Assembly (NCBI GenBank): GCA_963402885.1
Contig: OY727098.1
Coordinates: 1,297,001 to 1,361,000, forward strand
Origin: Antedon bifida
Taxonomy: Eukaryota > Echinodermata > Crinoidea > Comatulida > Antedonidae
Direction of reading: 5' to 3'
Length of the DNA: 64,000 nucleotides
Part shown: one piece after another, positions 1-49,324 of the stretch
Layout: every line of letters begins with the position of its first letter
Position numbering within the stretch: the stretch's first letter is position 1
Program-made: the position numbers and the translations under genes
The notes under the pieces: generated by a model
What the model was told of the DNA's origin: nothing
The model's input: the letters and a program-made list of their open reading frames with translations, nothing else
Databases searched by the model: none

Positions 1-3000
1 ATATCAGGGATGGGGAAGAATGTTTATACAGTATATTGTCCTCTGGTCTACCAGAAAAAAATGTTCTTTAGCTCTCAAACTTAATGTGACAAAAAATGTG
101 ATGTGCCCATATATGGACGCGATGATGTCACTACCGTATTTGGGCACCTCACACTTTTCTTGTCAAACTAGTTTGATGGTGTAGACAGAGCTTTATTGTT
201 TTACATAGATTTTAAAGCTATAAATAAAAACAATTGTAAATGTCACATTTTTTAGATGTAACATAAATATGTTTATTATAATTTTCTTAAATAATCTGAA
301 ATGAAATTGTTTGTGCCAAGAGAACCACATATTTTATTATAAATCCATTTTAATATGTATAAATTATGAATCCTGAAATAAATGTTTTGTGTTTATCGGA
401 AACTCTCCCAGACTTTTTTTGAGGTCCAAACAGTCCCAAACACATCCGAATACCAGACTTTCTGGAAAATCAGTCATATTTGGCCAGCCCAAAGGTATCC
501 AGTATTGGGAGAGTTGACTGTATTATGAATTTGATGTTTAAATCAAGAATCTGTAAAGTTTGTCTATCTGTTTCCTGTGACATCTTTTTCCACTTGAGCC
601 TGATATAAGTGCTTGCGTTGAGATCAAGTAAGAATAAGATGACACAAATTGTTTTACTTGATAAGTTGTAACCTTGTTGAACACGACACTTGAATAGACT
701 GAAGTAGTGATTTACTTTGAGGAACATAATGTACTATACTACATCATGTAAAGGGTGTACAACGCTATCAAAATAATGTTATAGCTATTAATATAATCTG
801 TCGTGTAGGCTTATCATATAAACTTGCTGGTATTGATAACTGTGTATAGTTTATCTATGATATATACAATAATACACCAGAAGTAATTATGTACTTCCTC
901 CAATACAGTGATTTTCCTCTCAACTCCAATTAATGATCACAAGTATTGGTGCAGTTTGGAAGAATTAAATTCAATACTTCGGATTGGTATGGTCATGTGA
1001 ATGAATTATCCCTCTATGGTGATGACATCATCACAGATTACAAATGTAGGGGTTATCTAACCCATGGAGGAAAAACTGCTCTCTCTCTCTCTTTTGGAAA
1101 ATATATTGTAGCCCTGATGGCCTGTACATTTATTTATTCTTTATTAAAAATTTGCCAAATAGAATTTAGAATATACGTCCATGATATACCCAGGAGTAAC
1201 CCATGGACTGAGTATGTGGCCCAACACACAAGTGGAATTATCTTTTATTATGAAGTAGATATCAATTTTTGTGCCATATTTTCTCTATTTTTTTCATCGC
1301 AATAGACTCTACATACTGTATTACAATTAAATCGTCTATTTTTAATGTAAGAAAAAGGCTATAGTAAATTAGTATTGTGTTGAATATGTTTGTGTACACA
1401 CACACATACACTAACTTGTGCAGCTTGTCTTCCATGTGCTAGTAAAAAGTATATAAATAGTGTACGTAATTTTAAAATTATCAAGCAACTTGTAATGTGC
1501 ATCTATGTATAGATTTTTAAGACCATTTATTATCGCAAATGCAGATAAATGTCGCAAAAGAATCCAAAACATCTTTCTCGAGTGTCTTATTCTTACTATA
1601 TAGAGGGCGGTATACATGTTATCAACAAAAAGCAACTTTTTTTTAAATACAGGAGGCGCGCTCTATTTTCTCCGTTTTTAGTGGATACAATCAGTTTTAT
1701 TAGCTTCTGTTTAAAAATTAGTTTCATTATAATTTGTTGGTTTAATCATAAAGATGTAACAGTAATTATTAACATAATTTAACCGTAAAAAATAGTTCTC
1801 TAACTCATTAGGCTCAATCTTGTGATCACCGTCTTGTTAAGACTCCTCTATACTCCCCTAAAATTCAATGATTCAAGCTTCCCCGCCAAAAAATCCTCGC
1901 TACGATTTTTCACGTTTTAATTTTATATTTTGTGTATTCTAATAATCCAAAAAAAAATCACTCGGCGGTCGCTTTTTAGAGGGTAACAACCTACCATGTC
2001 AATTAAAGAGAGCCTTCCATTATTGTGTCAATCGAAGCAGCCACAAACTCCACCATTGGCAGCTAGTTTTTATTCAATATCCTTTTTTATTTCAATATTA
2101 GCTCTTAATCATTTTTTAAATTAAAAGTTAATGATATTGAATACACAATTATAATCATTTAACAGCGACTTTTAAACAATCATTCTTCAAAGACCTAACC
2201 AGTTTGGTATCCCTCATAAAAAAATCAAATCCGCAAGAAGTGAGAAGGTTTTGACTTTGTTTTAATAATAATAAAAAATACCATACTTATTCGAAACTAT
2301 TGTAGTGTTTAGGGAGGGTGGTGTTTAAAGCTGTGTGTGTGTGTGTTTCGTAATGTATAATCAAATAAATTCATCCCTAATATGAAAAACACAATTTATA
2401 TCAAGAAGCGATAAATAATTATAGTAATTAAAAATCATTGGTCAATAGATGGTAAGGCCCCCAGGGAGTTTTATTTGAGGGGGAGTTTTCCAGACAATGT
2501 TTTATGAGGAGGGAGGCGTTTATACGAGATGGAAATTTATTCAAAGCGAGGCGTTTATTATTCGAATAAAAACGGTACAAATAAATCGTTTTATTTTTCT
2601 AAGTCGGCCCTATATGCTGACTAAATGGGCCTATTGTTCACCACCACTCAACGCACCCAATTCCCAACAACAAAAGTAACCAAAAGCACCCCACCCAAAA
2701 GGAAACAATCAAATTCTTAGTTTACTACTTGCATACAACAACAAATGCTTTTTTAAAGATTTGTTTTGAAACCATACTTAGTTCCGTATTATTTAATAAT
2801 ACCATCATTGATATGACCCAAATAATAGTGGGTCGTTGGTCCTGATTACATTTTAGGGAGATTTTCCAATAATCATTACAAAGAATTATTACCTACACAA
2901 GCTTGTTTAGTTTTGTTTAATATAGATATAATTTGCAGATTGAGCTAGTTTTCTAAATTATAATTATGTTAATTAATTGTAATGTTAAATGTGTTTATTT

Positions 3001-3100
3001 TATAAATTTATTTTATTAAATTCCCCATTTTGTAATGGATCGTCCCAGGGAAATACTACTTGGGTTACGAGCAGTTTATTAGCATAAGTAATGAATTGAC
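1..3100. other. AT-rich stretch without a recognisable gene
   Basis: Apart from a MITE copy at 70-193 and a short GT microsatellite near 2333-2347, I see no supported gene. The longest open frame (946-1305, +) has no recognisable domain, no convincing splice sites and the composition expected of AT-rich non-coding DNA. The stretch could include untranslated or distal sequence of a neighbouring gene to the left. Confidence 0.5.
70..193. mobile_element. MITE family 1, copy 1 (left inverted repeat internally deleted)
   Basis: The right end reads GTGTAGACAGAGCT followed by TTA, and the interior has the family's TGTGACAAAAAATGTGATG and CCATATATGGAC blocks. The left terminal repeat has lost about 11 bases (AGCTCT joined directly to CAAACTTAATGTGAC). 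Non-coding and non-autonomous. Confidence 0.85.
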
Positions 3101-3119
3101 ATACAATACAATTTTACTG

Positions 3120-3420
3120 AACGAGCCAGGGAGATAGAGAAAGGATTGGATTGGACTGCCATCTTGGTTTTTTCCTGTGGATAAATATCAAGTGCTCTGA
3201 TCGTTTTCACGGGGCATTCCCGAGCAATTCAGGAGTTTTAATCGTGTAATATCGATGAAGGTATATATAAGTACTTGTGGGAAATAATTGATGTGTTTTA
3301 ATGTTCAAATTATGTTACAACAGTTGAGGTATTTGTAGGGACGCGCGGACGATCCGGGGAGCGAGAAAAGAAGAGTGGCGATCATAACGCTTTGTTGTTT
3401 TGTGCATCATACAACCAAAA
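3120..3420 (+). promoter_or_regulatory. possible promoter or 5' non-coding exon zone of CNOT6
   Basis: The sequence is locally richer in GC and CpG than its surroundings (for example GGGACGCGCGGACGATCCGG near 3338). CTGCCATCTTGG at 3156-3167 is the reverse complement of a YY1-type CAAGATGGC site, a motif common just downstream of housekeeping start sites. It lies 3.5 kb upstream of the first coding exon of CNOT6, whose acceptor at 6707 implies at least one upstream non-coding exon. The link to CNOT6 is an inference. Confidence 0.25.
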
Positions 3421-4603
3421 ACAAGCTGGCTTTTCATTGATTTTTGTGTGGTATATTTCAATGCTAAACTAATGAATATTTATTTACTTAATTTTCTAAT
3501 GCTTAAGCTAAATACTACTGTCGAGTGTAATTGTGCTGATAGTGCAGTTTTTAGTGAATACTAAACACACGGAACCACACTTGCTGTTTTTTCTCTGCTG
3601 CTGTGGTGTACAGGGAATCAGGTCAGATGAACTCTGAAATTACCAGTGCAGTGTAGGCACTGGGCCTAGGTTTATTTTGGTAGGCTAGATCCGGTCAAAG
3701 AAAGGATGTTTAAGCCTACCTTGTATTCTAGCCATTTTCCTTGCAATCAGTTTACTTTTTTAGATCCACTTTTCTAATTGTTCTTGCCATTAAAAAAAGG
3801 AGTTTGAGAATGGATTCGTCCCAGGATTTGACCGGTACAATAAATTGGTGTTTTCAGTACCAATTTATGAGATAGGCCTTATATGGTGGGAATTAACCAC
3901 CCTAGATGCAATTAATTTTCAGCTTTGTATCTTAATTTTAAAGTGTCATAAATCACATAATTACATAATATTCAATTACTCAAATTATGTGAATTCTGAA
4001 GATCATAGTACCCCGTCTTCAATAGGCCATATTTTCAAAAATGACATTAAAACGCATGTGTTTGTTATATGGTAACCTAAAACATTTCAGCCAAATCTGT
4101 GACGTGACCTATAATGACCCATTAAGGAATTACCAATTATTAAGCTGGGGTTTGTTGGTTTAACTTGAATTCTATTTTTTCTCCTCTCATCTTTATTCAC
4201 ATTTTGATTACATTATTCCATTTTACTAAGTCAATGAGCTTCCAGTATTAAATATTACTGATCCTAACCAATACAGTACTGTATTTTTAAAATAATTAAG
4301 AACAGCACACATGACACAATGAGTTTAGACAGTTAGAATGTGAGTGTGATGTATAATATAAATAAAAGCTCACAATGCCTTTGCAATTCCCTAAGCCCCT
4401 TAACCTGTATTTTATGAGTTTAAGAGCTTGCGTAATTTCTCATTTTAAAAATGTTCTAAATAGTTTATGCTATGCAATATTTGCTTTACTGTACATTATT
4501 GTGCCATAAACTAGAATAACTAGTAACAAAATTTTTAAAGGGCCATACATACAGAACTACTATAAATACAGGAAAGAAATAAGTGCTGCATAGGCAGGAT
4601 CAT

Positions 4604-4829
4604 GTATAAAAATAAAACAGACAAATTTCTTGTTTCTGCCTCAAAATAAAATATTTATTATACGAGTACTTTCGACCATAGGTCATCATCAGGTACTGAT
4701 AGAATATTGGTAAAAGACTGATATATATCAATCGGTATGATGATGATGACCTATGGTCGAAAGTACTCGTATAATAAATATTTTATTTTGAGGCAGAAAC
4801 AAGAAATTTGTCTGTCTTATTTTTATACT
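4604..4829. repeat. near-perfect long inverted repeat (hairpin), arms about 85 bp
   Basis: The left arm (about 4604-4692) contains ACAAATTTCTTGTTTCTGCC and CGAGTACTTTCGACCATAGG. The right arm (about 4740-4829) is its reverse complement with only a few differences, leaving a loop of about 45 bases. The direct sequence TACTATAAATACA occurs near 4558 and again near 4826. This may be a fold-back MITE; it would give a long hairpin RNA if transcribed. Confidence 0.85.
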
Positions 4830-5086
4830 ATAAATACAATTTTATTAAAATGAAATTTTTGCAAATTTATGCTTGATATACTTAGGTCGCAGCAATAAAA
4901 GTAGTTTACACTGTACAGTACAAGAAGAAGAAGAATTATTATTGTCAATGTCATGGAGATAAAGAAATTATTTACCAAATTCATAATTGCATGTCTCCTT
5001 AATAATAATATTTATTTGGTCACTGATGAAAAAATAATGAGTGCTGATAGGCTAAGCCCAATTAGATTCTGCACTCACTTCATACA

Positions 5087-5300
5087 ATACAAACAGTTAA
5101 ATATTCAATTCAATTCAATTCATTTCACATTTATTCAATTAATGAAAACTTAGACAATGTAAACAATATAAACAAATAATGATTTCCTTAATTTGGATCA
5201 GACTTAGAGGCCGAGGCCTGTCTCAGAAAGACCCAACAAAACATAAATACAAAATAAAAATGTGTACAAATTAGATAAAATAGAACCTTAATATACAAGA
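5087..5300. repeat. probable interspersed repeat fragment
   Basis: Contains a short CAATT tandem, then TTTCACATTTATTCAATT, then TTAGAGGCCGAGGCCTGTCT and CCCAACAAAACATAAATAC. This GC-spiked block in AT-rich surroundings looks like the tail of an interspersed element. The family was not identified from sequence alone. Confidence 0.3.
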
Positions 5301-6721
5301 AAGGTAATAGGGGTTCTACTGTTTCAATTTACTCGCGAGGCAAATACAGTAGTTCATTGACCTTAAAGTTACTGTAATAATTATAAGGAAATCAATGAAA
5401 ATCAACATGTTTTTTGTATACTGTTGATAACCATCTCCATGTTAGCTTGAGTTTGATTACCTTATTGATTAGTATAAGATTTAATAAATAGCTATTATGA
5501 TTGAATATAGGATAGTACCCCATTCATTCCAAATTGTTCATAGAACAAAATGGTTTTTAAAACTTAAAGAATGTGATATAGTAGACTATAGATTCCTATA
5601 ATACTTCGGAAATAGATACAGTACCGAGAATTAGCGTTCTATAATAAGGACAATTATTGTTTGTTATACAGACTTTTAGTATATAACATTCGTGCAAAAT
5701 ACTGTATTTGATTAATGCATTTCTAAACTATAAAGTAACACCAGTATTGTCAATGCAGACAATGAAAGTTTTCTCATCAATATAAACAGTAAGCAGGTCT
5801 CAGATAAATGTTTAAACTTATTCACACATTAAATGGGTTTGATTAATTTTAACCTTGGGTATCTAGAAAAGCATTTTGTTTTTCAAGTCAACTATGACAT
5901 TGCCGTCATTGCTCAGTGAATCAGAGTTAAGAGAAGTGATTATGTTTAGCCACCAGCCTGCAGTAGGCTCACGATCATAAGCTTACAAGCTGAGTGTAAT
6001 CCTTGTAAGCTCCTTGCACAGCGTTAAACATAGAAAATTTCATTAAAGTTGACTCGGTTGGAAGTGAATAACCTATGCAAAATGCTTAATTTATGAAATG
6101 CACAATTGTAGCTGTGCATTATTTCGTTTAGCATTGTAACCGGTTTATGGCCAATATCATCTTGCTCTTTAAAAACTTTGCAGTTTTCAGACAGATTTTT
6201 TGTTATGATAGTCATTCATTCAATGTATTTGTTAGATTAGTGCTGTCTGCTATACCACTGAGACCATCTTTACTGAATTAAGATTAAATGACAGTTAAAT
6301 TACGGTACAGATATGCTTGCATTACTACTTTTATACACTGTTAGTATGTACTTATTACTATATTTAATTGATGCTGAATTGAAACAGGCAAGCTGAGGAT
6401 AGGATACTACTGTAGATTGTAATTGGTGACATACTGTAATTGTATAGAAACTGAAGGATGCAGCGCAAGCTGTAGGATACATGGGTGCTTAGAGCCTTCA
6501 TCATTACCCCATTGTTGGGGTAAGGGGAAAAGAGACTTACAGTGAAGCATGATTGCTACTGTACAGTACTACTGTATAGGTGGAAGGCCCAAAAAGTAAC
6601 ATGTGTAAAGTTTACTTCTGTATAATACTGAGTGTAGGTGCAAGATGTTAAGCTGAGTGAGCCCTCTAAAGTACAGAGCATTCAAATCTTTTTTTTTATT
6701 TTCGTAGAAATTAAAAAAGGA

Positions 6722-9700: not shown

Positions 9701-12700
9701 TATGTGACAAAAAATGTGATGTGCCTATATATGGACATGATGATGTCATATCACTACCATATTTGGGCATATCACTACCATATTTGGGCATATCACGCTA
9801 GTGTAAACATAGCATCAAATTAAAGATTAGATTCCATGTTTGTCTCTTTATTGGAAAACTGCCCAAATCACTTTTTCTTTCTATGTGCCCATGGGTGTCT
9901 ACATTCTAATGTTAGTGTTTGGTAACCTGTTTGTGCAAAGGTTATATTTAATCACAGTTAAACTTCTTGTATATATTTTCTCATTTGTACTGTAGAGAGT
10001 GACCTTTAAACATTACATGGTATGAGAACCAAGTTTTAGTAATGTAAAAATACAGTAGTTTAAACAATAGTTTGTTTTATTTCAGCCATTTTTTCATTGA
10101 TGTGTTACAACGTGCTGTGTGATAAGTACGCTACTCGTCAATTATACGGCTATTGTCCATCGTGGGCGTTGGACTGGGAGTACAGAAGAAAGGGCATCAT
10201 GGATGAAATCATAAATAACAGTGCTGATATCATATGTCTTCAGGTAACTCCTTCTAAATTCTTGCAAGTTAATTTCATTTGTCTGAACTTTAACCTTTGG
10301 TTTTCCATTGTAATTTAATCCACTTGTTCACAGTACAAAACACATTTTAAAGTTAATCTTGATATGTATACAGTACAGTGGACCGTATTGATTGCAAACT
10401 GTGTTTGTATTAAATACTTCTTAATGCTACTTGTGTAGGATGTGTTCTATGTACCCTAGCATATTCACATAATATATAGCATGATGTACTCTAATTATTC
10501 TTCATTAAAATCTATTTTTAATTGAAAATGTTTTCTATTCATATTTAACAAAGATCGTAATTATTTATTAATGAACTAAACATGCCTGAGAAAATTGTTC
10601 TTTGTTCAAATTAATACTTTATTCATAATGTCTTTTAATAGATTGGAAAATTGCTTAAAAACCTCTTTTACAATGTATTAATATAACATTGTGACCGGAA
10701 TCTTGATTTTGTAATTGTTATCTGCTTTGAAATTTAAAAATAATAATTAACATTGAATAAAATTGGTTTGACTTAAAGTAGTAGCTGCTTGGATGTTATT
10801 GTCGGATATGCAATTATTAGAAAAGAGGCTCCAAATATGTTGACAGAAATAAACTTTATGCTAAGCAGAATAAGTTAGTTAAAGCAACCATACAGTATTT
10901 TTCAGTACCCTCTACATACAAATTTGCACTTTGCACCGTTAATTATTGGGCCTAATTGATACCATCTAATTTAATAACAAATTGATTTTGCAGGAAGTAG
11001 AGACAGAACAGTACTTCAACTTCTTTTTACTGCAGTTGAAGCAACAAGGGTATGATGGTGTCTTCAGCCCCAAATCAAGAGCAAAGACCATGGGAGAGCA
11101 TGAGCGAAAACATGTGGATGGATGTGCCATCTTCTTCAGGACAAGCAAGTAAGTTTTACCATTGATTACATTCTTCATTTCTTTATTCAAATTCAAAACA
11201 AACAAACAGTACAAGAATGAATTCAGGGTAGCACAAAAAAGTAACCAATGGTCAAACTTATTTCCATTGTGGCCCTTAAGGATGAAATAGGTACAGAATA
11301 TAGTTTAATACAAAATTAGACAATTACAATTACCTGTGTATTTTAAGCAAACCATGAAACTAATTAATTGTATTTGAATCTAGATTTAGCCTTGTCAAAG
11401 AACATCTTGTGGAGTTTAATCAAGTTGCAATGGCAAATGCAGAGGGTTGTGAGGACATGTTAAATCGTGTAATGACCAAGGATAACATTGGCGTTATTGC
11501 CTTACTGGAAATGAGAGAAGGATGTATCGATCCATGTAAGTATAGTCTTTCTGATCCATTGACCATCTGAGTTCCGCAATGAAGAAGTTGAGATGTTTTA
11601 TTATACATTTAATCCTGTTACCACACCATAAATTCATTTTAGATATAAGTGGAGATATTATATAATTGATGTGTAGATGTAGGTACACATAACCAGTCGT
11701 GAACTGGTTAATAATAATATGGGTTTATATAGCGCACATACCACTCAAGGCGCAGCCTAAATTTAGGTTACCCAGCCTAAATTTAGGTTACCCAGCCTAA
11801 ATTTAGGTTACCCAGCCTAAATTTAGGTTACTCAGCCTAAATTTGGGTTACCCAGCCTAAATTTCTTCCTTCTAGCTCTGGTAATAAGAAAGTTGATTAA
11901 GGTTTTATAACAAGATAAATGTTTACCTATGACCTACTCTAATAATCTAATATATTATAGCATTTTTTGTATATATTGGTTAAGTAACTAAATCCTTGGG
12001 TGTCAGTATCTTTAAAAGCACAATAAGAGATTGCCCAGACCTTCTATCTTTATCTACAGAATATGTACTATTTTCTACTAACTACTAATGCTTGCTTTAT
12101 TTGTTATTCCATAGCATTTAATTCCGAGTCGACTCCAAGACAGCTATTGATGGTTGCTAATGCCCACATCCATTGGGATCCAGAATTCTGTGATGTTAAG
12201 CTTATCCAGATCATGATGCTTATGAAGGAGCTGAAGAAGTTTCAGGAAGAAGAGTCACACAGCTTTAGGCCTGGGTCATCAGGGTCACAGAATGACCAAC
12301 CAGCAATTCCACTCTTGTTAGCTGGTGATTTTAACTCATTGCCTGAATCAGGTAGGCTTTAGCTAATAGGCAGCTTTTAAAAGTTCCTTGATCACCCCTC
12401 TGCAATAATGAACTAGTCTGGCATAGACTACTGTGCCAAAACCATTGTTCACTTTGTAATTTTGTTTCTTGTGGTGTGTATTTACAAATGCCTTATTTCT
12501 CCATGTTTTTTAATAATTATATTATAATTGATTAATTTATGTTTTGTTTCAGGTGTGATTGAATATTTGGCAAAAGGAAAAATCTCACTGAATCATCCTG
12601 ACTTCAAAGAGATGGATTACAAGAAGTTATTTAACTTCAGCAGCAGTCCCGAGCAAAACGGTCACATTAGCCATTCCTTCCGCCTGCATAGCGCTTATGA

Positions 12701-33619: not shown

Positions 33620-33742
33620 TTATAATTGTCTGCATTAACTTAAAATCGATATTTCTGAAATATAATAAAATATGATACTCATTATTCAGCATGCCAAGAT
33701 TTATTCTTAAAAACGTCGCCCTCTATCTTTACCACCTATTTA

Positions 33743-33810
33743 GAGCTATATTGTGTAGTCGTTTTTTGATAACTGAGAGCTATCAGTGTGTATCATCCTC
33801 GTATATAATT
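33743..33810 (+). repeat. left terminal inverted repeat of fold-back element 1
   Basis: Begins GAGCTATATTGTGTAGTCG and continues TTTTTTGATAACTGAGAG. Pairs with the reverse complement of 45628-45694. Confidence 0.85.
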
Positions 33811-34020
33811 GTTTCTTAGTTGTAATAAAGATCACATTATTATAACATCTAGCATATTTTTATAATATATAAATTTATAGGTACCAAAACTAATATTTTT
33901 ATTTAAAAAAAAATTCGATAAGTATTTTAATAACACTGAAACAACATTCTTAATATAACAAATGATATGTAGTACTACTAAATCAATGTCTAATTGCATA
34001 GGACTATGTGTACAGTATTA

Positions 34021-37000
34021 TGATCAGTGTAGTCAGAATTTGATAACTGAGCACGCATCTTTTAATATCTACCTCATCAATAATTAGCATTGATATCATA
34101 TATCACATTGTTGGATATGATCAGTGTAGTCATAATTTGATAACTGAGCACGCATCTTTTAATATCTACCTCATCAATAATTATTATTAATAATCTATAT
34201 CACATTGTTCGATATGATCAGTGTAGTCAGAATTTGATAACTGAGCACGCATCTTTTAATATCTACCTCATCAATAATTATTATTAATAATCTATATCTC
34301 ATTGTTCGATATGATCAGTGTAGTCAGAATTTGATAACTGAGCACGCATCTTTTAATATCTACCTCATCAATAATTATTATTAATAATCTATATCACATT
34401 GTTCGATATGATCAGTGTAGTCAGAATTTGATAACTGAGCACGCATCTTTTAATATCTACCTCATCAATAATTATTATTAATAATCTATATCACATTGTT
34501 CGATATGATCAGTGTAGTCAGAATTTGATAACTGAGCACGCATCTTTTAATATCTACATCATCAATAATTATTATTAATAATCTATATCACATTGTTGGA
34601 TATGATCAGTGTAGTCAGAATTTGATAACTGAGCACGCATCTTTTAATATCTACCTCATCAATAATTATTATTGATAATCTATATGATTGTTGGATACGA
34701 TCAGTGTAGTCAGAATTTGATAACTGAGCACGCATCTTTTAATATCTACCTCATCAATAATTATTATTAATAATCTATATCACATTGTTCGATATGATCA
34801 GTGTAGTCATAATTTGATAACTGAGCACGCATCTTTTAATATCTACCTCATCAATAATTAATATTAATAATCTATATCACATTGTTCGATATGATCAGTG
34901 TAGTCAGAATTTGATAACTGAGCACGTATCTTTTAATATCTACATCATCAATAATTATTATTAATAATCTATATCACATTGTTCGATATGATCAGTGTAG
35001 TCAGAATTTGATAACTGAGCACGCATCTTTTAATATCTACCTCATCAATAATTAATATTAATAATCTATATCACATTTTTGGATATGATCAGTGTAGTCA
35101 GAATTTGATAACTGAGCACGCATCTTTTAATATCTACCTCATCAATAATTAGCATTGATATCATATATCACATTGTTGGATATGATCAGTGTAGTCATAA
35201 TTTGATAACTGAGCACGCATCTTTTAATATCTACCTCATCAATAATTATTATTAATAATCTATATCACATTGTTGGATATGATCAGTGTAGTCATAATTT
35301 GATAACTGAGCACGCATCTTTTAATATCTACCTCATCAATAATTATTATTAATAATCTATATCTCATTGTTCGATATGATCAGTGTAGTCAGAATTTGAT
35401 AACTGAGCACGCATCTTTTAATATCTACCTCATCAATAATTATTATTAATAATCTATATCACATTGTTCGATATAATCAGTGTAGTCAGAATTTGATAAC
35501 TGAGCACGCATCTTTTAATATCTACCTCATCAATAATTATTATTAATAATCTATATCACATTGTTCGATATGATCAGTGTAGTCAGAATTTGATAACTGA
35601 GCACGCATCTTTTAATATCTACATCATCAATATTTATTATTAATAATCTATATCACATTGTTGGATATGATCAGTGTAGTCAGAATTTGATAACTGAGCA
35701 CGCATCTTTTAATATCTACCTCATCAATAATTATTATTAATAATCTATATCCCATTGTTGGATATGATCAGTGTAGTCAGAATTTGATAACTGAGCACGC
35801 ATCTTTTAATATCTACCTCATCAATAATTATTATTGATAATCTATATCACATTGTTGGATACGATCAGTGTGGTCAGAATTTGATAACTGAGCACGCATC
35901 TTTTAATATCTACCTCATCAATAATTATTATTAATAATCTATATCACATTGTTCGATATGATCAGTGTAGTCATAATTTGATAACTGAGCACGCATCTTT
36001 TAATATCTACCTCATCAATAATTAATATTAATAATCTATATCACATTGTTCGATATGATCAGTGTAGTCAGAATTTGATAACTGAGCACGCATCTTTTAA
36101 TATCTACATCATCAATAATTATTATTAATAATCTATATCACATTGTTCGATATGATCAGTGTAGTCAGAATTTGATAACTGAGCACGCATCTTTTAATAT
36201 CTACCTCATCAATAATTAATATTAATAATCTATATCACATTTTTGGATATGATCAGTGTAGTCAGAATTTGATAACTGAGCACGCATCTTTTAATATCTA
36301 CCTCATCAATAATTAGCATTGATATCATATATCACATTGTTGGATATGATCAGTGTAGTCATAATTTGATAACTGAGCACGCATCTTTTAATATCTACCT
36401 CATCAATAATTATTATTAATAATCTATATCACATTGTTCGATATGATCAGTGTAGTCATAATTTGATAACTGAGCACGCATCTTTTAATATCTACCTCAT
36501 CAATAATTATTATTAATAATCTATATCTCATTGTTCGATATGATCAGTGTAGTCAGAATTTGATAACTGAGCACGCATCTTTTAATATCTACCTCATCAA
36601 TAATTATTATTAGTAATCTATATCACATTGTTGGATATGATCAGTGTAGTCAGAATTTGATAACTGAGCACGCATCTTTTAATATCTACTTCATTAATAA
36701 TTAATATTAATATCATATATCACATTGTTAGATGTGATCAGTGTAGTCAGAATTTGATAACTGAGCACGCATCTTTTAATATCTACCTCATCAATAATTA
36801 TTATTAATAATCTATATCACATTGTTGGATATGATCGGTGTAGTCAGAATTTGATAACTGAGCACGCATCTTTTAATATCTACCTCATCAATAATTAATA
36901 TTAATAATCTATATCACATTGTTGGATATGATCAGTGTAGTCAGAATTTGATAACTGAGCACGCATCTTTTAATATCTACCTCATCAATAATTAGCATTG

Positions 37001-38478
37001 ATATCATATATCACATTGTTGGATATGATCAGTGTAGTCATAATTTGATAACTGAGCACGCATCTTTTAATATCTACCTCATCAATAATTATTATTAACA
37101 ATCTATATCACATTGTTGGATATGATCAGTGTAGTCATAATTTGATAACTGAGCACGCATCTTTTAATATCTACCTCATCAATAATTATTATTAATAATC
37201 TATATCTCATTGTTCGATATGATCAGTGTAGTCAGAATTTGATAACTGAGCACGCATCTTTTAATATCTACCTCATCAATAATTATTATTAATAATCTAT
37301 ATCACATTGTTCGATATGATCAGTGTAGTCAGAATTTGATAACTGAGCACGCATCTTTTAATATCTACCTCATCAATAATTATTATTAATAATCTATATC
37401 ACATTGCAATATATGATCAGTGTAGTCTGAATTTGATAACTGAGCACGCATCTTTTAATATCTACATCATCAATAATTATTATTAATAATCTATATCACA
37501 TTGTTCGATATGATCAGTGTAGTCAGAATTTGATAACTGAACACGCATCTTTTAATATCTACCTCATCAATAATTAATATTAATAATCTATATCACACTG
37601 TTGGATATTATCAGTGTAGTCTTAATTTGATAACTGAGCACGCATCTTTTAATATCTACCTCATCAATAAGTAATATTAATAATCTATATCACATTGTTC
37701 GATATGATCAGTGTAGCCATAATTTGATAACTGAGCACGCATCTTTAAATATCTACCTCATCAATAATTATTATTAATAATCTATATCACATTGTTGGAT
37801 ATGATCAGTGTAGTCATAATTTGATAACTGAGCACGCATCTTTTAATATCTACTTCATCAATAATTAATATTAATATCATATATCACATTGTTAGATGTG
37901 ATCAGTGTAGTCAGAATTTGATAACTGAGCACGCATCTTTTAATATCTACCTCATCAATAATTATTATTAATATCTTATATCACATTGTTGGATATGATC
38001 AGTGTAGTCATAATTTGATAACTGAGCACGCATCTTTTAATATCTACTTCATCAATAATTAATATTAATATCATATATCACATTGTTAGATGTGATCAGT
38101 GTAGTCAGAATTTGATAACTGAGCACGCATCTTTTAATATCTACCTCATCAATAATTATTATTAATAATCTATATCACATTGTTGGATATGATCAGTGTA
38201 GTCATAATTTGATAACTGAGCACGCATCTTTAAATATCTACCTCATCAATAATTATTATTAACAATCTCTATCACATTGTTGGATATAATCAGTGTAGTC
38301 ATAATTTGATAACTAAGCACGCATCTTTAAATATCTACTTCATCAATAATTATTATTAATAATATATATCACATTGTTGGATATGATCTGTGTATTCATA
38401 ATTTGATATAACGCATCTTTTAATATCTACCTAATCAATAATAATTATTAATACTTAATGTTGGATATGATCAGTGTG
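34021..38478 (+). repeat. left 97-bp satellite array, about 46 units
   Basis: Head-to-tail units begin GATCAGTGTAGTCAGAATTTG and continue through ATAACTGAGCACGCATC, CTACCTCATCAATAATTA and ATATCACATTGTTCGATAT. Most units differ by only a few bases. The last few units near 38280-38478 are more diverged, as expected at an array edge. Variant units containing AATTAGCATTGATATC start at 34083, 35148, 36312 and 36991, that is 11, 12 and 7 units apart, which shows multi-unit block duplication. Confidence 0.97.
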
Positions 38479-38479
38479 G

Positions 38480-38740
38480 TTTTGTTAAATTTACTGTATA
38501 CGAGAGATCGAGTCGATGGGTTTTGAAAATGTGTTATTCTTTTGTTCCTAATCACCCTATTGATTTGTATCCGTTTGTTGTTTAAATTTATACTTTTAAG
38601 AACGCATCGTTTATGATGAACGTGTGCCGTTGTAAAAATAAAAATATTCCATATCTTTTTATGTTTCATATGTATTGGCTTCTATTGAGGGTCCCAGTTC
38701 TTCTTAACAGAATAAATTTGCAGTGAATGAATAATTTGAT
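38480..38740 (+). repeat. LINE 3' tail fragment in the spacer of fold-back element 1
   Basis: Shares GAGGGTCCCAGTTCTTCTTA, GAATAAAT and a terminal GTGAATGAATAA tract with 26445-26530. It sits directly after the last 97-bp unit of the left array. Confidence 0.5.
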
Positions 38741-39060
38741 AAATGAGGACGTGTGTTTTAACATCGATCTATACAGACCGTATTAATACTCTTCCAGAAA
38801 TGATATGTTGCTATAATAGGCCTATGACGAATTTCCATTACATTAATAATTCAATTAAAAAGGAAATGTGTCAGAAATACTAAAGAATCCAGTAATCTTG
38901 TTGATTAATAATTAGTTGTACCATTTCTGATGAACGAACAGAAAACTAAACTTGCAGCCAATCAAAAAGCTGCTGTACTGTATAAGTAGGGAATTTTAGG
39001 TAGGAGTTGTTTTAAATGTCATTGGTCTCGGCTTTTACAAGCTTCTGACCTAGTTTGTGT

Positions 39061-39945
39061 TTTAAAATGTCAATTTTGGATAAATTGACAGATTTTACCA
39101 TGTAAACTGTGCAAACTTAATGCAAACTTTAATAAAAAACACCCCACAAACATCATTCAAACCACTTAATATTGATTATACCACTGCTAGAACTATAAAA
39201 GAGGACAATTTATGAAATAATTTTATTGAAATAGCTCTAGGTTTGATTTTTTAGGGTGAAAAATGTTAATTTTGGATAAATTTACAGATTTTACCATTTA
39301 AACTGCGTAAACTTAATACAAACTTTAAAAAAACACCCACAAACATCATCCAAACAACTTAATATTGATTATACCACTACAAGAACTATAAAAGAGGACA
39401 ATTTATGGAATAATTTTATTGAAATAGCTCTAGGTTTGATTTTTTAGGGTGAAAAATGTCAATTTTGGATAAATTGACAGATTTTACCATGTAAACTGTG
39501 CAAACTTTAAAAAAACACCCCACAAACATCATCCAAACCACTTAATATTGATTATACCACTGCTAGAACTAGAAAAGAGGACAATTTATGAAATAATTTT
39601 ATTGAAATAGCTCTAGGTTTGATTTTTTAGGGTGAAAAATGTCAATTTTGGATAAATTTACAGATTTTACCATGTAAACTGCATAAACTTAATGCAAACT
39701 TAAAAAAAACACCCCACAAACATCATTCAAACCACTTAATATTGATTATATCACTACTAGAACTGTAAAAGAAGACAATTTTTGAAATCAATTTATTGAA
39801 ATAGCTCTAAGTTTGACTTTTTAGGGTGAAAAATGTCAATTTTGGATAAATTTACAGATTTTACCATTTAAACTGCGTAAATTTAATGCAAACTTAAAAA
39901 AAACACCCCACAAACATCATTCAAACCACTTAATATTGATTATAT
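39061..39945 (+). repeat. about 193-bp tandem repeat, 4-5 units, in the spacer
   Basis: Units contain CACCCCACAAACATCATTCA, TTAATATTGATTATACCAC, GAGGACAATTTATGAAATAA, AGCTCTAGGTTTGATTTTTT and GTCAATTTTGGATAAATTGA. ACACCC(C)ACAAACATCA starts near 39140, 39330, 39512, 39708 and 39900. The array ends abruptly at the start of the right 97-bp array. Confidence 0.92.
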
Positions 39946-39946
39946 C

Positions 39947-42900
39947 AAAGTTATCAAACTATGATTACACTGATCATATCCAACATTGTGATATAGGATA
40001 TTATTAATAGTTATTGATAAGGTAGATATTAAAAAACTAAACAGATAATATCCAACAGTATGATAAAGATTATTAATATTAATTAATGATGATGTATCTA
40101 TATTAAAAGATTTTTGCTCAGTTATCAAATTATGACTACACTGATCATATCCAACAATGTGATATAGATTATTAATAATAATTATTGATGAGGTAGATAT
40201 TAAAAGATGCATGCTCAGTTATCAAATTATGACTACACTGATCATATCGAACAATGTGATATAGATTATTAATATTATTATTGATGAGGTAGATATTAAA
40301 ATATGCGTGCTCGGTTATCAAATTATGACTACACTGATCATATCCAACAATGTGATATAGATTATTAATAATAATTATTGATGAGGTAGATATTAAAAGA
40401 TGCGTGCTCAGTTATCAAATTATGACTACACTGATCATATCGAACAATGTGATATAAGATATTAATCATAATTATTGATGAGGTAGATATTTAAAGATGC
40501 GTGCTCAGTTATCAAATTCTGACTACACTGATCACATCTAACAATGTGATATAGATTATTAATAATAATTATTGATGAGGTAGATATTAAAAGATGTGTG
40601 CTCAGTTATCAAATTATGACTACACTGATCATATCGAACAATGTGATATAGATTATTAATATTACTTATTGATGAGGTAGATATTAAAAGATGCGTGCTC
40701 AGTTATCAAATTATGACTACACTGATAATATCCAACAGTGTGATATAGATTATTAATATCAATTATTGATGAGGTAGATATTTAAAGATGTATGCTCAGT
40801 TATCAAACTATGACTACACTGATCATATCCAACATTGTGATATAGGATATTATTAATAGTTATTGATAAGGTAGATATTAAAAAACTAAACAGATCATAT
40901 CCAACAGTATGATAAAGATTATTAATATTAATTAATGATGATGTATCTATATTAAAAGATTTTTGCTCAGTTATCAAATTATGACTACACTGATCATATC
41001 CAACAATGTGATATAGATTATTAATAATAATTATTGATGAGGTAGATATTAAAAGATGCATGCTCAGTTATCAAATTATGACTACACTGATCATATCGAA
41101 CAATGTGATATAGATTATTAATATTAATTATTGATGAGGTAGATATTAAAATATGCGTGCTCGGTTATCAAATTATGACTACACTGATCATATCGAACAA
41201 TGTGATATAGATTATTAATATTAATTATTGATGAGGTAGATATTAAAAGATGCGTGCTCAGTTATCAAATTATGACTACACTGATCATATCCAACAATGT
41301 GATATAGATTATTAATATTAATTATTGATGAGGTAGATATTAAAAGATGCATGCTCAGTTATCAAATTATGACTACACTGATCATATCGAACAATGTGAC
41401 ATAGATTATTAATAATAATTATTGATAAGGTATATATTAAAAAATAAACAGATCATATCCAACAGTGTGATATAGATTATTAATATTAATTAATGATGAG
41501 GTAGATATTGAAAGATGGGTGCTCAGTTATAACATTATGACTACACTGATCATATCCAACAATGTGATATAAATTATTAATAATAATTATTGATGAAATA
41601 GATATTGAAAGATGGGTGCTCAGTTATAAAATTATGACTACACTGATCATATCCAACATTGTGATATAGGATATTATTAATAGTTATTGATAAGGTAGAT
41701 ATTAAAAGATGCGTGCTCAGTTATCAAATTATGACTACACTGATCAGTTCCAACAATGTGATATAGATTATTAATAATAATTATTGATGAGGTAGATATT
41801 AAAAGATGCGTGCTCAGTTATCAAATTCTGACTACACTGATCATATCGAACAATGTGATATAAGATATTAATAATAATTATTGATGAGGTAGATATTAAA
41901 AGATGCGTGCTCAGTTATCAAATTCTGACTACACTGATCACATCTAACAATGTGATGATATTAATAATAATTATTGATGAGGTAGATATTTAAAGATGCG
42001 TGCTCAGTTATCAAATTATGACTACACTGATCATATCGAACAATGTGATATAGATTATTAATAATAATTATTGATGAAGTAGATATTAAAAGATGCATGC
42101 TCAGTTATCAAATTCTGACTACACTGATCACATCTAACAATGTGATATATGATATTAATATTAATTATTGATGAGGTAGATATTAAAAGATGCGTGCTCA
42201 GTTATCAAATTATGACTACACTGATCATATCGAACAATGTGATATAGATTATTAAAAATAATTATTGATAAGGTATATATTAAAAAACTAAACAGATCAT
42301 ATCCAACAGTGTGATATAGATTATTAATATTAATTAATGATGAGGTAGATATTGAAAGATGGGTGCTCAGTTATAAATTTATGACTACACTGATCATATC
42401 CAACATTGTGATATAGGATATTATTAATAGTTATTGATAAGGTAGATATTAAAAAACTAAACAGATCATATCCAACAGTATGATAGAGATTATTAATATT
42501 AATTAATGATGATGTATCTATATTAAAAGATTTTTGCTCAGTTATCAAATTATGACTACACTGATCATATCCAACAATGTGATATAGATTATTAATAATA
42601 ATTATTAATGAAATATATATTGAAAGATGGGTGCTCAGTTATAAAATTATGACTACACTGATCATATCCAACAATGTGATATAGATTATTAATAATAATT
42701 ATTGATGAGGTAGATATTAAAAGATGCGTGCTCAGTTATCAAATTCTGACTACACTGATCATATCGAACAATATGATATAAGATATTAATAATAATTATT
42801 GATGAGGTAGATATTAAAAGATGTGTGCTCAGTTATCAAATTATGACTACACTGATCATATCGAACAATGTGATATAGATTATTAATATTAATTATTGAT

Positions 42901-44272
42901 GAGGTAGATATTGAAAGAGTCGTGCTCAGTTATCAAATTATGACTACACTGATCACATCTAACAATGTGATATAGATTATTAATAATAATTATTGATGAG
43001 GTAGATATTAAAAGATGCGTGCTCAGTTATCAAATTCTGACTACACTGATCACATCTAACAATGTGATATATGATATTAATATTAATTATTGATGAGGTA
43101 GATATTAAAAGATGCGTGCTCAGTTATCAAATTATGACTACACTGATCATATCGAACAATGTGATATAGATTATTAATCATAATTATTGATAAGGTATAT
43201 ATTAAAAAACTAAACAGATCATATCCAACAGTGTGATATAGATTATTAATATTAATTAATGATGAGGTAGATATTAAAAGATGCGTGCTCAGTTATCAAA
43301 TTCTGACTACACTGATCATATCCAACAATGTGATATAGATTATTAATATTAATTATTGATGAGGTAGATATTAAAAGATGCGTGCTCAGTTATCAAATTA
43401 TGACTACACTGATCATATCGAGCAATGTGATATAGATTATCAATAATAATTATTGATGAGGTAGATATTAAAAGATGTGTGCTCAGTTATCAAATTCTGA
43501 CTACACTATCATATCCAACAATGTGATATAGATTATTAATAATAATTATTGATGAGGTAGATATTAAAAGATGCGTGCTCAGTTATCAAATTCTGACTAC
43601 ACTGATCATATCCAACAATGTGATATAGATTATTAATAATAATTATTGATGATGAAGATATTAAAAGATGCGTGCTCAGTTATCAATTTCTGACTACACT
43701 GATCATATCGAACAATGTGATATAGATTATTAATAATAATTATTGATGAGGTAGATATTAAAAGATGCGTGCTCAGTTATCAAATTCTGACTACACTGAT
43801 CATATCGAACAATGTGATAATAATTATTTATGAGGTAGATATTAAAAGATGCGTGCTCAGTTATCAAATTCTGACTACACTGATCATATCGAACAATGAG
43901 ATATAGATTATTAATAATAATTATTGATGAGGTAGATATTAAAAGATGCGTGCTCAGTTATCAAATTCTGACTACACTGATCATATCGAACAATGTGATA
44001 TAGATTATTAATAATAATTATTTATGAGGTAGATATTAAAAGATGCGTGCTCAGTTATCAAATTCTGACTACACTGATCATATCGAACAATGAGATATAG
44101 ATTATTAATAATAATTATTGATGAGGTAGATATTAAAAGATGCGTGCTCAGTTATCAAATTATGACTACACTGATCATATCCAACAATATGATGTAGAGT
44201 ATTAATTATTGATGATGTAGATATTATAAGATGCATGCTAAGTTATCAAATTTTGACTACACTGATCATATT
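39947..44272 (-). repeat. right 97-bp satellite array, about 45 units, inverted
   Basis: The same 97-bp unit as 34021-38478 but on the other strand: + strand units read GACTACACTGATCATATCGA, AACAATGTGATATAG, ATTGATGAGGTAGATATTAA and GATGCGTGCTCAGTTATCAA. It is more heterogeneous than the left array. Truncated variants (AAAAAACTAAACAGATCATA) occur near 40031, 40871, 41445, 42285, 42450 and 43205. A block at about 39947-40212 recurs almost unchanged at about 40800-41061. Confidence 0.97.
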
Positions 44273-44599
44273 TGATATTGTGATTGATGATGATATATTC
44301 ATATAAAGAGTTTGTTCTTCTGTACAATACTCACAGTATTTTTTAATCCATCCACATGAAGAAGAGACACAAGAAGAGTTGTTTGAAATTGTGAAGCCTC
44401 ACAACCTTACTAATTGTGATGACATTTAATATAATATTACAGCCATACACAAACAGTAAGGTAGTTAGGGTCACTACAATCTATTAAAATAATTAACATT
44501 AATTAACTGGAAACATTGTTAATTATCAGTTTGAGTTTGACTTTTGTCTCTTTTGTTGTAGAATTGAATCTCTCTTTATCCATTGTTTTCAACCTGAAA

Positions 44600-45480
44600 A
44601 TAAACAGGCCTAATACCTTGCCATTAGCAATGAAATCAACTTACACACTAATATTTTATATAGATAGGCTGTCTATGACCCCCAGCCTACCCCTAGCTAG
44701 GCCTATGCCTCTCTATACCATTCTGCTGGCTAGCTAGCAAGGCCCTCCTAGGCCTAGTCCTATAATTATTAGCACAGGTCTCATATAGATAGGCCTAGAG
44801 TGTTTAGACTGAGCCTGGTTATATGCCTATTTATTTAACTAGGCCTAGGCCTAGGCAGGCATAATCAGCCTAAACTAAGGCCTAATAAACTAGTCTAGGC
44901 CTAGGCCCTAAAAACTAGAATACATAGAGCTAGCTAGTTAGGCTAGCCTAGCTACTTATTAGCTAGTAAGTAGGCCTAGCTAGCTAGCCTACCAGTTCCC
45001 TAGTAGGGCCTAACCAGGTGGGCCTACCCGGCCTAGCTAGGCCTAGTAGTAGTAGTAGTACTACCCTGTAGTAGCCTACTAGGCTAGTACTACTACTAGG
45101 CCTACCTAGCTAGACTAGCCCTAGTAGTAGGCCTAGGCTATATGCCTAGTAGTACTAGGCCTACCTAGGCTACTAGCTAGAGTAGAGAGATGCTAGCCTA
45201 CCTCCTAGGCCTACTAGGCCTCCTAGCTACTCCTTTTTGGAGGCTAAAATATTGTCTAAAATAAGCTATGACCTACAAACATAGCTTAACTATCTGTTAA
45301 GGGTGACACTTATGATGGGTAATCATTAAAATATGCTTCTAAATCTACCTTTTTGGCTTGCAATCTTAATATCCGGCCTAGGCTAGGCCTGCACGGATCA
45401 GGTAGCGAAACGAACGAAGTGAGAGCAGAGGAGGAGGAGGCCTAGCTAGGGCCTAGGTTTCAGGCAGAAAAGAACATCTC
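44600..45480. repeat. CCTAGGCC/CTAGCTAG-rich low-complexity block
   Basis: Dense TAGGCCTAGG, CTAGCTAG, AGTAGTAGTAGTACTAC and TACTACTACTAGGCC words, many self-complementary, in otherwise AT-rich DNA. No open frame of interest. It lies between the right 97-bp array and the right terminal repeat, with no counterpart on the left side. Confidence 0.85.
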
Positions 45481-45627
45481 GTGTTTGTGAAATTATATAT
45501 CTATTTATAGTTATTTTAAAATATATCCCTAACATTTCAAAAATTATATATATTACTGATAATTAATTATAAGAATGATACTCTACCTAATGATATAATC
45601 AATTAAATGTGTTTTTCGTACGAAATT

Positions 45628-45694
45628 AATTATATACGAGGATGGCATAAGTGATAGTTCTCTGTTATCAAAAAACAACTACATAATATACCTG
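45628..45694 (-). repeat. right terminal inverted repeat of fold-back element 1
   Basis: On the minus strand it begins CAGGTATATTATGTAGTTG and continues TTTTTTGATAACAGAG, matching 33743-33810. Confidence 0.85.
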
Positions 45695-46454
45695 CTATTT
45701 ACTACTACTCCACACACTACCCTGCCATGGCTAGGCCTAGCTAGGCTAGCTTCCAGAGGTTGGTTGCTAGTCACCGGATAGAGGATACTTATCAGACCCA
45801 GTCAGTACACTGGACACTTGCGCCCACTTGCTAATTCTATACTGACCAATTAATTTCATATATTATAGGCTATTATAATATTTTACCGATAGATATAATA
45901 AAGCTTCGGTTATTCTTCAATTTCTATGACTTTACCTTTTTTCCTGCCAGACTCCTGCCATATGAGAGGTATATTCAGAGCGTTAATTCTGACGATGGAG
46001 CATTCTCTACTTCTCTACGGAGCGCCATTTATGCCTTTATTTACTTCAGAAATAGAAATAGTACTACGGTAGCTGGTCCAGTGGATCAAATTTGGCACCG
46101 GTGGAGTAAAGTGATATAGAATAGAAATAAGTCACTAATTTAAATATATTTTCGTATGTTAATACACTGTGCTCAAGTGGACCCAATTTGGCACAAGGGG
46201 AGCACAGTGATATAAAATAGAAATAAAGTCACTAAATGTTAATACAGTATCTCATTCGTATCTAATACACTGAGCTCAATGGACCCAATTTGGCACGAGC
46301 GGAGCAAAGGGATATAAAATAGAAATAAAATAAATAAAATGTTATATCTCATTCGTATGTTAATATACTGTGCTCAAGTGGACCCAATTTGGCGCCAGTG
46401 GAGCACAGCGATATAACAGAAATAAAAAATAGAAAAGTCACTGAATGTTATTAT

Positions 46455-47830: not shown

Positions 47831-48716
47831 TTCAACCTGTATTCGATCTCGTAAATTTTATGTTTGCCGCCCTCAATTTTAAAAGAAATTGAATTTATAT
47901 TTTCATCGCAGGTGTACGAAACAGTTTGGTATGCCGTGCGTTGTTATGCAATGGTTGTGCAGGTGTAGTGGGAAAGATGGTATTGTTAGTAATTCGCGGT
48001 CAACACGCCACACTGTTAAATTTTGATTTTGTTAATCAATGTTGCTACATTCGTAGCGAAAATGTCCGATTCATGCAAGATATGGCCCCAGAATAAACAT
48101 GTTAAACAGATAGTTTGTCTCCGATGGTTTTTGTATGGGGTTAATGGAGAGTGAAATAAGATCAAATTTGCAAAGATGCCGAATTTTAGACTAATTCATA
48201 GGTGATTATGTGTGTAATAAAGTATAAGTGCAATTCTGGACTCTATTTTCATTATTAGCTCTGCCCTAACCATGGTGGGCTAGTACTGGACTGGAGACTA
48301 TATTTAATTTCATATTTCAATGAATAGGTAATGAATAGGTACGGTGCACTTTCCGGGGACACTAAATAATTATTTATCTTAGACAAACGCGCCGCAAGTT
48401 ATCAAAATCACTGATATGGCTTGAAACTACGTATGAAGTAAAACCGATATTGAACATATATACCACTGGGGCCAACTTGGGTCTACTTGAGCACAGTGTA
48501 TTAACATACGAAAAGATATTAAAAAATTTAGTGACTTTATTTCTATTTTATATTATCACTGTGCTCCACTGGCGCCAAATTGGGTCCACTTGAGCAGTCA
48601 CCGTAGTACTATTTCTATTATTGAAGTTAATAAAGGCATAAATGGCGCGCCGTAGAGAAGTAGAGAATGCTCCAGCCGTCAGAATGACGCTGTTACGCTC
48701 TGAATATACCTCTTAT

Positions 48717-49324
48717 AATTTCGCGCACTCATTCAAAACACATCGCGCGAAACCGGCGTAGGCCTCCTAGTAGCTCCGCTCAAATAAAAAAACAAACATG
48801 AACAAACTCGAACAACCATCATTTGTTCGTGAAAAGCACGTATTACGTACTATTAACTCAATACGAGAAAGGTCGGTTATTAAATAACGATTTACCTAGG
48901 CCTTTTTTAGGCTAGCCTAGGCCTTCTTCTTCAGACTTCCTACCATATGATCCTCCTGAACTGTCCTAGGCCTAAACCTGTCCTAGACCTGTCACATAGG
49001 ACCTAGATTTGGCCAGTTGTAGTAGGCTATACTACCTAGTAAAAAGGAGAAGGGGAGGCTAGACCCGGGCATAAGCCTAGCTATGCGGTGGATAGTAGTG
49101 TGCCAGCGGGTTCTATGTATTGAAACGAAAATAATATTGTATAATATTATAAAACGGTATTTGATTTGCATATTTTATTAATAATCAACACTAGCCTAGG
49201 CCTAGTTCAATTCTGCTGCTCCATCATAAATTAATTAATGAATTATGTAAATGTTTATTTGTATATTATTCTAGTTTTTCAACAATTATTTAAATTTTGA
49301 CTACCAGTTTGTTTTTTTTTGCAG
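48717..49324 (+). other. upstream region and first intron of PRIMPOL
   Basis: CpG-containing sequence directly after fold-back element 2 (CGCGCGAAACCGGCG near 48742) and CCTAGGCC words. The strong acceptor TTTTTTTTTGCAG ends at 49324, so the start codon of PRIMPOL must be in an upstream exon. ATGs at 48799 and 49084 are candidates, but neither gives a convincing phase-matched donor. Confidence 0.35.

Follow-up and report, generated by a model that had tools for sequence, protein, structure and literature searches.

The DNA analysed here (the window) is a 64,000-nucleotide stretch of the crinoid Antedon bifida, located on contig C11 in a genome of 27 contigs and 315.6 Mb (C-labels below denote contigs), and its positions 33743-45694 hold a transposon-like element with two long satellite arms in opposite orientation (Table 1). 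The terminal inverted repeats (TIRs) match each other at 85% identity across 67 columns (E about 1e-15, compared within the window), the left one opening with GAG and the right one ending with CTG, and the 7-bp direct repeat CTATTTA directly abuts both; these matching ends and the repeated flank had already been recognized in an initial annotation made from the letters alone. The left array is 4.43 kb long and consists of 46 units, as that annotation had counted, with a spacing of 97 bp in 44 of 45 cases. For the inverted right array (4.29 kb) its count of about 45 units of 97 bp was revised: there are 41 anchored units, six of which include a further unit, about 72 bp long, so that splitting gives 47, and BLAST counted 46 units on either side. 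In the window element these shorter units are confined to the right arm. The arms are not mutual copies, with only six exact unit types in common (32 types on the left and 41 on the right), and because so few types are shared, the arms of one element evolve apart. About 1.5 kb separates them, in agreement with the annotation, and this spacer is made of a second tandem array at 39064-39944 (about 880 bp, 194-bp unit, about 4.6 copies) and a 586-bp unique part. On the right side, a further 1.4 kb, including a variable GGCCTA-rich stretch, separates the array from the end. The annotation had seen no transposase in the element, and indeed it contains no open reading frame (ORF) of 110 amino acids (aa) or more, the longest stop-to-stop frames being 102 aa.

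The genome was searched for the same ends, and elements were defined by pairing left with right ends; in the left-end search the best 40 of 61 candidates were scored, the lowest ranks being already right ends. Twenty-nine elements have both ends placed, and 28 of them are flanked by a perfect 7-bp duplication, the 28 duplications being 28 different sequences, while in the 29th element (C12:23.77 Mb) the right end is disrupted and there is no perfect duplication. Inverted ends with a constant 7-bp duplication at differing sites are characteristic of TIR transposons, and the expectation of the annotation that the terminal repeats would flank other insertions was borne out. Thirty of the scored left ends are full copies with 97-100% identity across 276 bp; another, at C8:29.63 Mb, is truncated, and two more are diverged relatives (85% and 73%). 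No partner was assigned to the left end at C8:17802758 or to a right-like end at C9:6728194, which is partial (89%). Leaving aside one gene-bearing element described below, the 27 elements with duplications measure 7,967-17,397 bp (median 11,565 bp, sum 318,595 bp). When the joined flanks of 28 elements were aligned with the compared genome stretches, no clean paralogous empty site was found; a match of the C10:20.03 Mb flanks to window positions 48719-48560 had been flagged as spanning the junction, and on inspection it was no clean empty site.

Ten copies including the window element and an eleventh at C10:20.03 Mb were read end to end, and the anatomical counts refer to these eleven, the interiors of the other 17 elements lying outside them. 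All eleven are gene-less, with a longest stop-to-stop frame of 104 aa, and all eleven have the long, inverted and sub-repeated arms of a fold-back element, the class that had been proposed from the window alone. In every copy read, the units face inward and are oriented as their own end. Ten copies have a common plan, with the left end followed by 15-65 plus-strand units, the spacer, the 194-bp array, minus-strand units and the right region. At C10:20.03 Mb, about 9 bp separate 76 plus units from 30 minus units, the spacer is missing and the right region is only 207 bp long, yet the target duplication is present. A genome search with the spacer, in which 38 of 38 candidates were scored, gave 27 strong copies (identity of 89% or more), one of them in two pieces, and all 27 are inside family elements other than the gene-bearing one; the C10:20.03 Mb copy is the single member of these 28 elements without a strong spacer copy. 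Weaker matches were either 31-bp pieces that also lie in these elements or, elsewhere in the genome, segments of 46-81 bp with 76-89% identity. In the right arm of the element at C8:3.1 Mb lies an insert of 4.3 kb whose ends read AGGTGATCATTT...; it gave no match to the insert resembling a long interspersed nuclear element (LINE) that is described below.

With units encoded as types, the unit order of the window element is largely shared with the copy at C8:32.6 Mb (39 of 45 units in common on the left, 44 of 46 on the right) and with the one at C7:3.8 Mb (37 of 45 and 40 of 46). With more distant members the order is mostly lost, e.g. 5 of 36 left units in common with C8:8.1 Mb, and the interiors of arrays turn over between subfamilies. 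Left arms among the eleven copies have between 15 and 76 units, right arms between 29 (9 + 20) and 46. Because sister copies largely share unit order, the elements appear to move together with their arrays, and array turnover to be slower than the most recent rounds of transposition. Chance is excluded by the recurrence of these ends at 27 other places of the genome, with a 7-bp duplication around each pair; an array lying by accident between unrelated ends was ruled out by the recurrent duplications, the opposed arms, the shared unit order and the spacer copies. The window feature is one of about 28 closely similar fold-back-like DNA elements with satellite arms.

An autonomous partner elsewhere in the genome had been predicted, and a good candidate for it is the element at C8:17974045-18002631 (28,587 bp), which has the family ends, the duplication GTTAGGC on both sides and a gene of the Kyakuja-Dileera-Zisupton (KDZ) type. 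Its left end is 98.6% identical to that of the window element over 276 bp. The left arm has 14 + 51 units, broken by a LINE-like insert (bases 1596-5953 of the element) with an open 1172-aa frame that by reading comprises an endonuclease and a reverse transcriptase; the left arm is followed by the genes and by five right-arm units, beyond which the right region, itself diverged, leads to the right TIR. The KDZ gene is on the minus strand and has multiple exons, which, joined by eye, match PF18758 with an E-value of 4.4e-7 and 30.3 bits (Pfam cut-off 26.6 bits). Splice-like GT or AG lies beside several of the gene pieces chosen in this element, though not all. A second gene between the arms, on the plus strand, encodes a PHD finger scoring 28.1 bits in a single exon, above the cut-off of 24 bits, and 20.5 bits, below it, in the joined version; an OTU-like stretch of this gene is likewise below cut-off. 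Among ten exon pieces and two joined proteins compared with Pfam, none matched THAP or P, the remaining exons and the genome not having been searched for them. Apart from pieces of array units, no relative of the spacer was found in the KDZ element. On sequence grounds the KDZ gene is a candidate for an intact, expressed transposase gene.

In a DNA search of the genome, with nine of nine candidates scored, the full KDZ sequence occurred once. At a duplicate locus (C8:17.80-17.84 Mb) the left flank is 96% alike and only the 3′ part of the KDZ gene is kept; the stretch C8:17802758-17835146, to which the pairing of ends assigned no right end, is an apparent segmental duplicate of the KDZ element. 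One exon of the KDZ gene has a distant relative at C14:4.02 Mb (4019246-4019746; 29% aa identity), and four stretches at C14:16476632-16479330 are 75-86% alike to part of the gene.

The left TIR and the 97-bp unit have the core GTGTAGTC-4-TTTGATAACTGAG in common, in the same orientation and with 21 of 25 bases, a score reached by 3 of 2000 dinucleotide shuffles. Counting units of 84 bp or more in the ten copies and excluding 47 shorter ones, 410 of 458 in left arms and 258 of 341 in right arms carry the exact core. When the mask of 21 core positions was shifted along the distinct unit types of these copies, nearly every shifted version was more variable than the core positions themselves (rank 3 of 97 on the left and 2 of 97 on the right), with p-values of 0.003 and 0.006 against random sites. 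Because the units share these 21 of 25 bases with the left TIR, the arms may be ladders of transposase-binding sites.

We propose, with a probability of roughly 0.8, that a KDZ-type transposase moves the window element, which would be a non-autonomous DNA transposon and belong to a young family numbering 28 elements of about 8-17 kb, the KDZ-bearing one not counted. As the shared ends suggest, the enzyme of the 28.6-kb element, or a close relative of it, would mobilize the gene-less copies in trans. More speculatively, the left-end core carried by each full unit may serve as a putative transposase-binding site, and the arms would then be long ladders of putative secondary sites that recruit transposase and help to unite the two ends, with array length drifting through unequal exchange. 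Units were retained even in the C10:20.03 Mb copy, which lost the spacer and most of its subterminal parts. The broader idea, that the KDZ lineage turned subterminal transposase sites into a satellite whose mobile arrays spread intact, with arm length selected for transposition, is held tentatively, and we give it somewhat less than an even chance.

Several results weigh against these proposals. The right end of the KDZ element has 62 differences from the window element in about 320 bases (identity across the final 215 bases is 83.8%) and 50-62 from the ten copies, and because of this divergence the direct parent of the gene-less copies may be a sister element; moreover, its left array is split by the LINE-like insert. 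A single KDZ exon scores 16.4 bits against PF18758, below the cut-off, and a six-frame search of the genome for the KDZ family gave nothing, as did 14 controls, which we attribute to the shortness of the exons. As for the arms, the right TIR has no significant likeness to the unit (222 of 2000 shuffles equal it), the contiguous 25-bp core window ranks only 16 of 97 on the left and 6 of 97 on the right in conservation, much of the core is absent from the 72-bp units, and the shortest left arm (C7:18.2 Mb) has merely 15 units, reflecting the wide variation of array length.

It is unlikely that another transposase, of P, hAT or Mutator type, moves the gene-less elements while the KDZ gene is a passenger. 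Duplications of 7 bp occur in Galileo-type P elements. They are made by hAT7 as well, according to the available portion of PMC12730594, and a divergence of 16-19% separates the KDZ element from the ten compared copies at the right end; however, the same portion of that source gives 7-bp duplications for fungal Kyakuja, a KDZ element, and the KDZ gene here sits between the arms, in an element with family ends and its own duplication. Where the initial annotation had expected a P- or hAT-like enzyme, the candidate partner encodes one of KDZ type, and no frame longer than 104 aa is present in the eleven gene-less copies, the genome not having been searched for P, hAT or Mutator genes. A different question is whether the arms have any role in transposition, and the possibility that they are a neutral satellite, grown by unequal exchange from a Tetris-like satellite seed and carried along, comes close to an even chance. 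The widely varying unit numbers, the turnover of array interiors, the 15-unit arm and the loss of core from the 72-bp units all speak for it, whereas the reduced variability of the core positions relative to most shifted masks, the high share of exact cores, the size of even the shortest of the 27 measured elements (7,967 bp) and the 76 + 30 units kept by the spacer-less C10:20.03 Mb copy speak against it.

Long inverted arrays are hard to assemble, and an inverse duplication of one array during assembly would imitate opposed arms. This error is implausible to the point of being negligible, because eleven separate loci with differing unit numbers show the same opposed arms in the assembly, the sole source of this evidence, and unit types differ between left and right arms; the inverted arrangement read in the initial annotation is thereby upheld. 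A rolling-circle element of Helentron/HINE type with central satellite repeats, as in oysters, was rejected as having almost no chance of being correct: it requires the absence of a target duplication, and to our knowledge rolling-circle elements make no such duplication, whereas inverted ends with 7-bp duplications were found in 28 of 29 elements. What had brought it into consideration is that mobile satellite arrays of Crassostrea travel on Helentron/HINE elements (PMC7492417, in the part available).

Comparisons with known systems rest on the available portions of the sources cited. The nearest is Tetris of Drosophila virilis, a fold-back transposon having long inverted arms with internal tandem repeats (PMC4079207). 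As in the present family, its repeat unit has a stretch in common with the outer end (about 80% identity across 37 bp in Tetris, 21 of 25 bases here), its repeats also form long satellite arrays (up to 66 copies), and its copies are without conserved ORFs (PMC4079207). Tetris differs in its units of about 220 bp, as opposed to 97 bp, and in TIRs of up to 1,735 bp; it has three complete copies with duplications of 8-10 bp, compared with 28 elements and 7 bp here (PMC4079207). One complete Tetris copy has three left-arm units and its allele has four, and its long arrays were proposed to break up the element (PMC4079207), whereas tens of units per arm coexist here with both ends and a 7-bp duplication. 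In that portion of the source no autonomous copy was found and Tetris was attributed to Mutator, while here there is a KDZ-bearing candidate partner (PMC4079207). Galileo likewise has long, internally repeated TIRs, and transposase-binding sites were demonstrated in the repeats (PMC3688188), a precedent by analogy for transposase sites in arm repeats, where binding in the present arms would be predicted; it differs in its P-type transposase with a THAP domain and TIRs of more than 1 kb, with no KDZ gene described in that part of the source (PMC3688188).

The KDZ transposase domain is common to Kyakuja, Dileera, Zisupton and the candidate partner, and multi-exon genes occur in animal Zisupton as they do in the partner (PMC12730594, PMC9297572). 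Fungal Kyakuja makes 7-bp duplications like those of this family, yet the Kyakuja families described have CA..TG ends without TIRs, in contrast to the 67-bp TIRs here, and Zisupton makes duplications of 8 rather than 7 bp (PMC12730594). Satellite arms are not mentioned for Kyakuja, Zisupton or Dileera in the available sections of the two sources (PMC12730594, PMC9297572). The Cg_HINE Helentrons of the Pacific oyster also show satellite-like arrays spread by a mobile element, but they are of Helentron type with a central array, unlike the opposed arms and target duplications found here (PMC7492417). Among the literature matches listed, judged by titles and the openings of abstracts and with subscription journals, most preprints and Repbase outside the coverage, there was no KDZ element with satellite arms. 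The element is of a known kind, a fold-back with repeated arms as in Tetris and Galileo, and its KDZ-linked form with long satellites appears to be new.

If this reading is correct, a long-armed lineage would be added to the little-studied KDZ transposases, a fold-back family based on KDZ would be available together with its coding partner, and a transposon end would have a direct natural path to becoming a satellite. Tetris, the nearest fold-back with satellite-forming arms, is known without a transposase in the portion of PMC4079207 available. Because 28 elements, a KDZ candidate partner and arrays readable unit by unit coexist in one genome, both the route from transposon end to satellite and the benefit of long arms become testable.

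Table 1. Parts of the satellite-armed element, in window coordinates
Feature	Position	Strand	Remarks
Left target-site duplication CTATTTA	33736-33742		7-bp repeat flanking the element
Left TIR, begins GAGCTATATTGTGTAGTC	33743-33810	+	TIR alignment, genome copies
Left subterminal stretch	33811-34018	+	with the TIR, 276 bp, 97-100% identical across 30 full-length left ends
Left satellite arm	34019-38477	+	46 x 97-bp units; inner edge approximate
Unique spacer	38478-39063		27 strong genomic copies, each within family elements
Inner array	39064-39947		194-bp unit, about 4.6 copies (range 3-12 across ten copies)
Right satellite arm	39948-44271	-	46-47 inverted units, six about 72 bp; inner edge approximate
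Right subterminal region	44272-45627		variable GGCCTA-rich stretch about 44620-45330
Right TIR, inward reading CAGGTATATTATGTAGTT	45628-45694	-	
Right target-site duplication CTATTTA	45695-45701		7-bp repeat flanking the element

Five ORFs of the window were compared with Pfam, and four of them matched, giving leucine-rich repeats, radical SAM/HemN (two exons) and a CTP-transferase, which we take to belong to CNOT6, RSAD1 and CDS1 and which by themselves make an animal host probable. Other repeats lie near the family or inside its members. Positions L061:2000-2468, inside the KDZ element, are a copy of another, high-copy repeat (best 40 of 4901 candidates scored); many of its matches form plus/minus pairs separated by 2-3 kb and contain sub-repeats of about 290 bp (C9:4738768-4742039 is an example), and the repeat resembles a second fold-back family of smaller elements. 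Window positions 45965-46425 and 48463-48719 belong to a repeat family with sub-units of about 100 bp, and the elements at C15:21.6 Mb and C10:20.0 Mb adjoin the edges of copies of this repeat. A dispersed 21-bp tandem motif, ATATCACTACCATATTTGG, is found in up to 14 copies at window positions 9747, 18801, 23353, 24069, 30837 and 54895.

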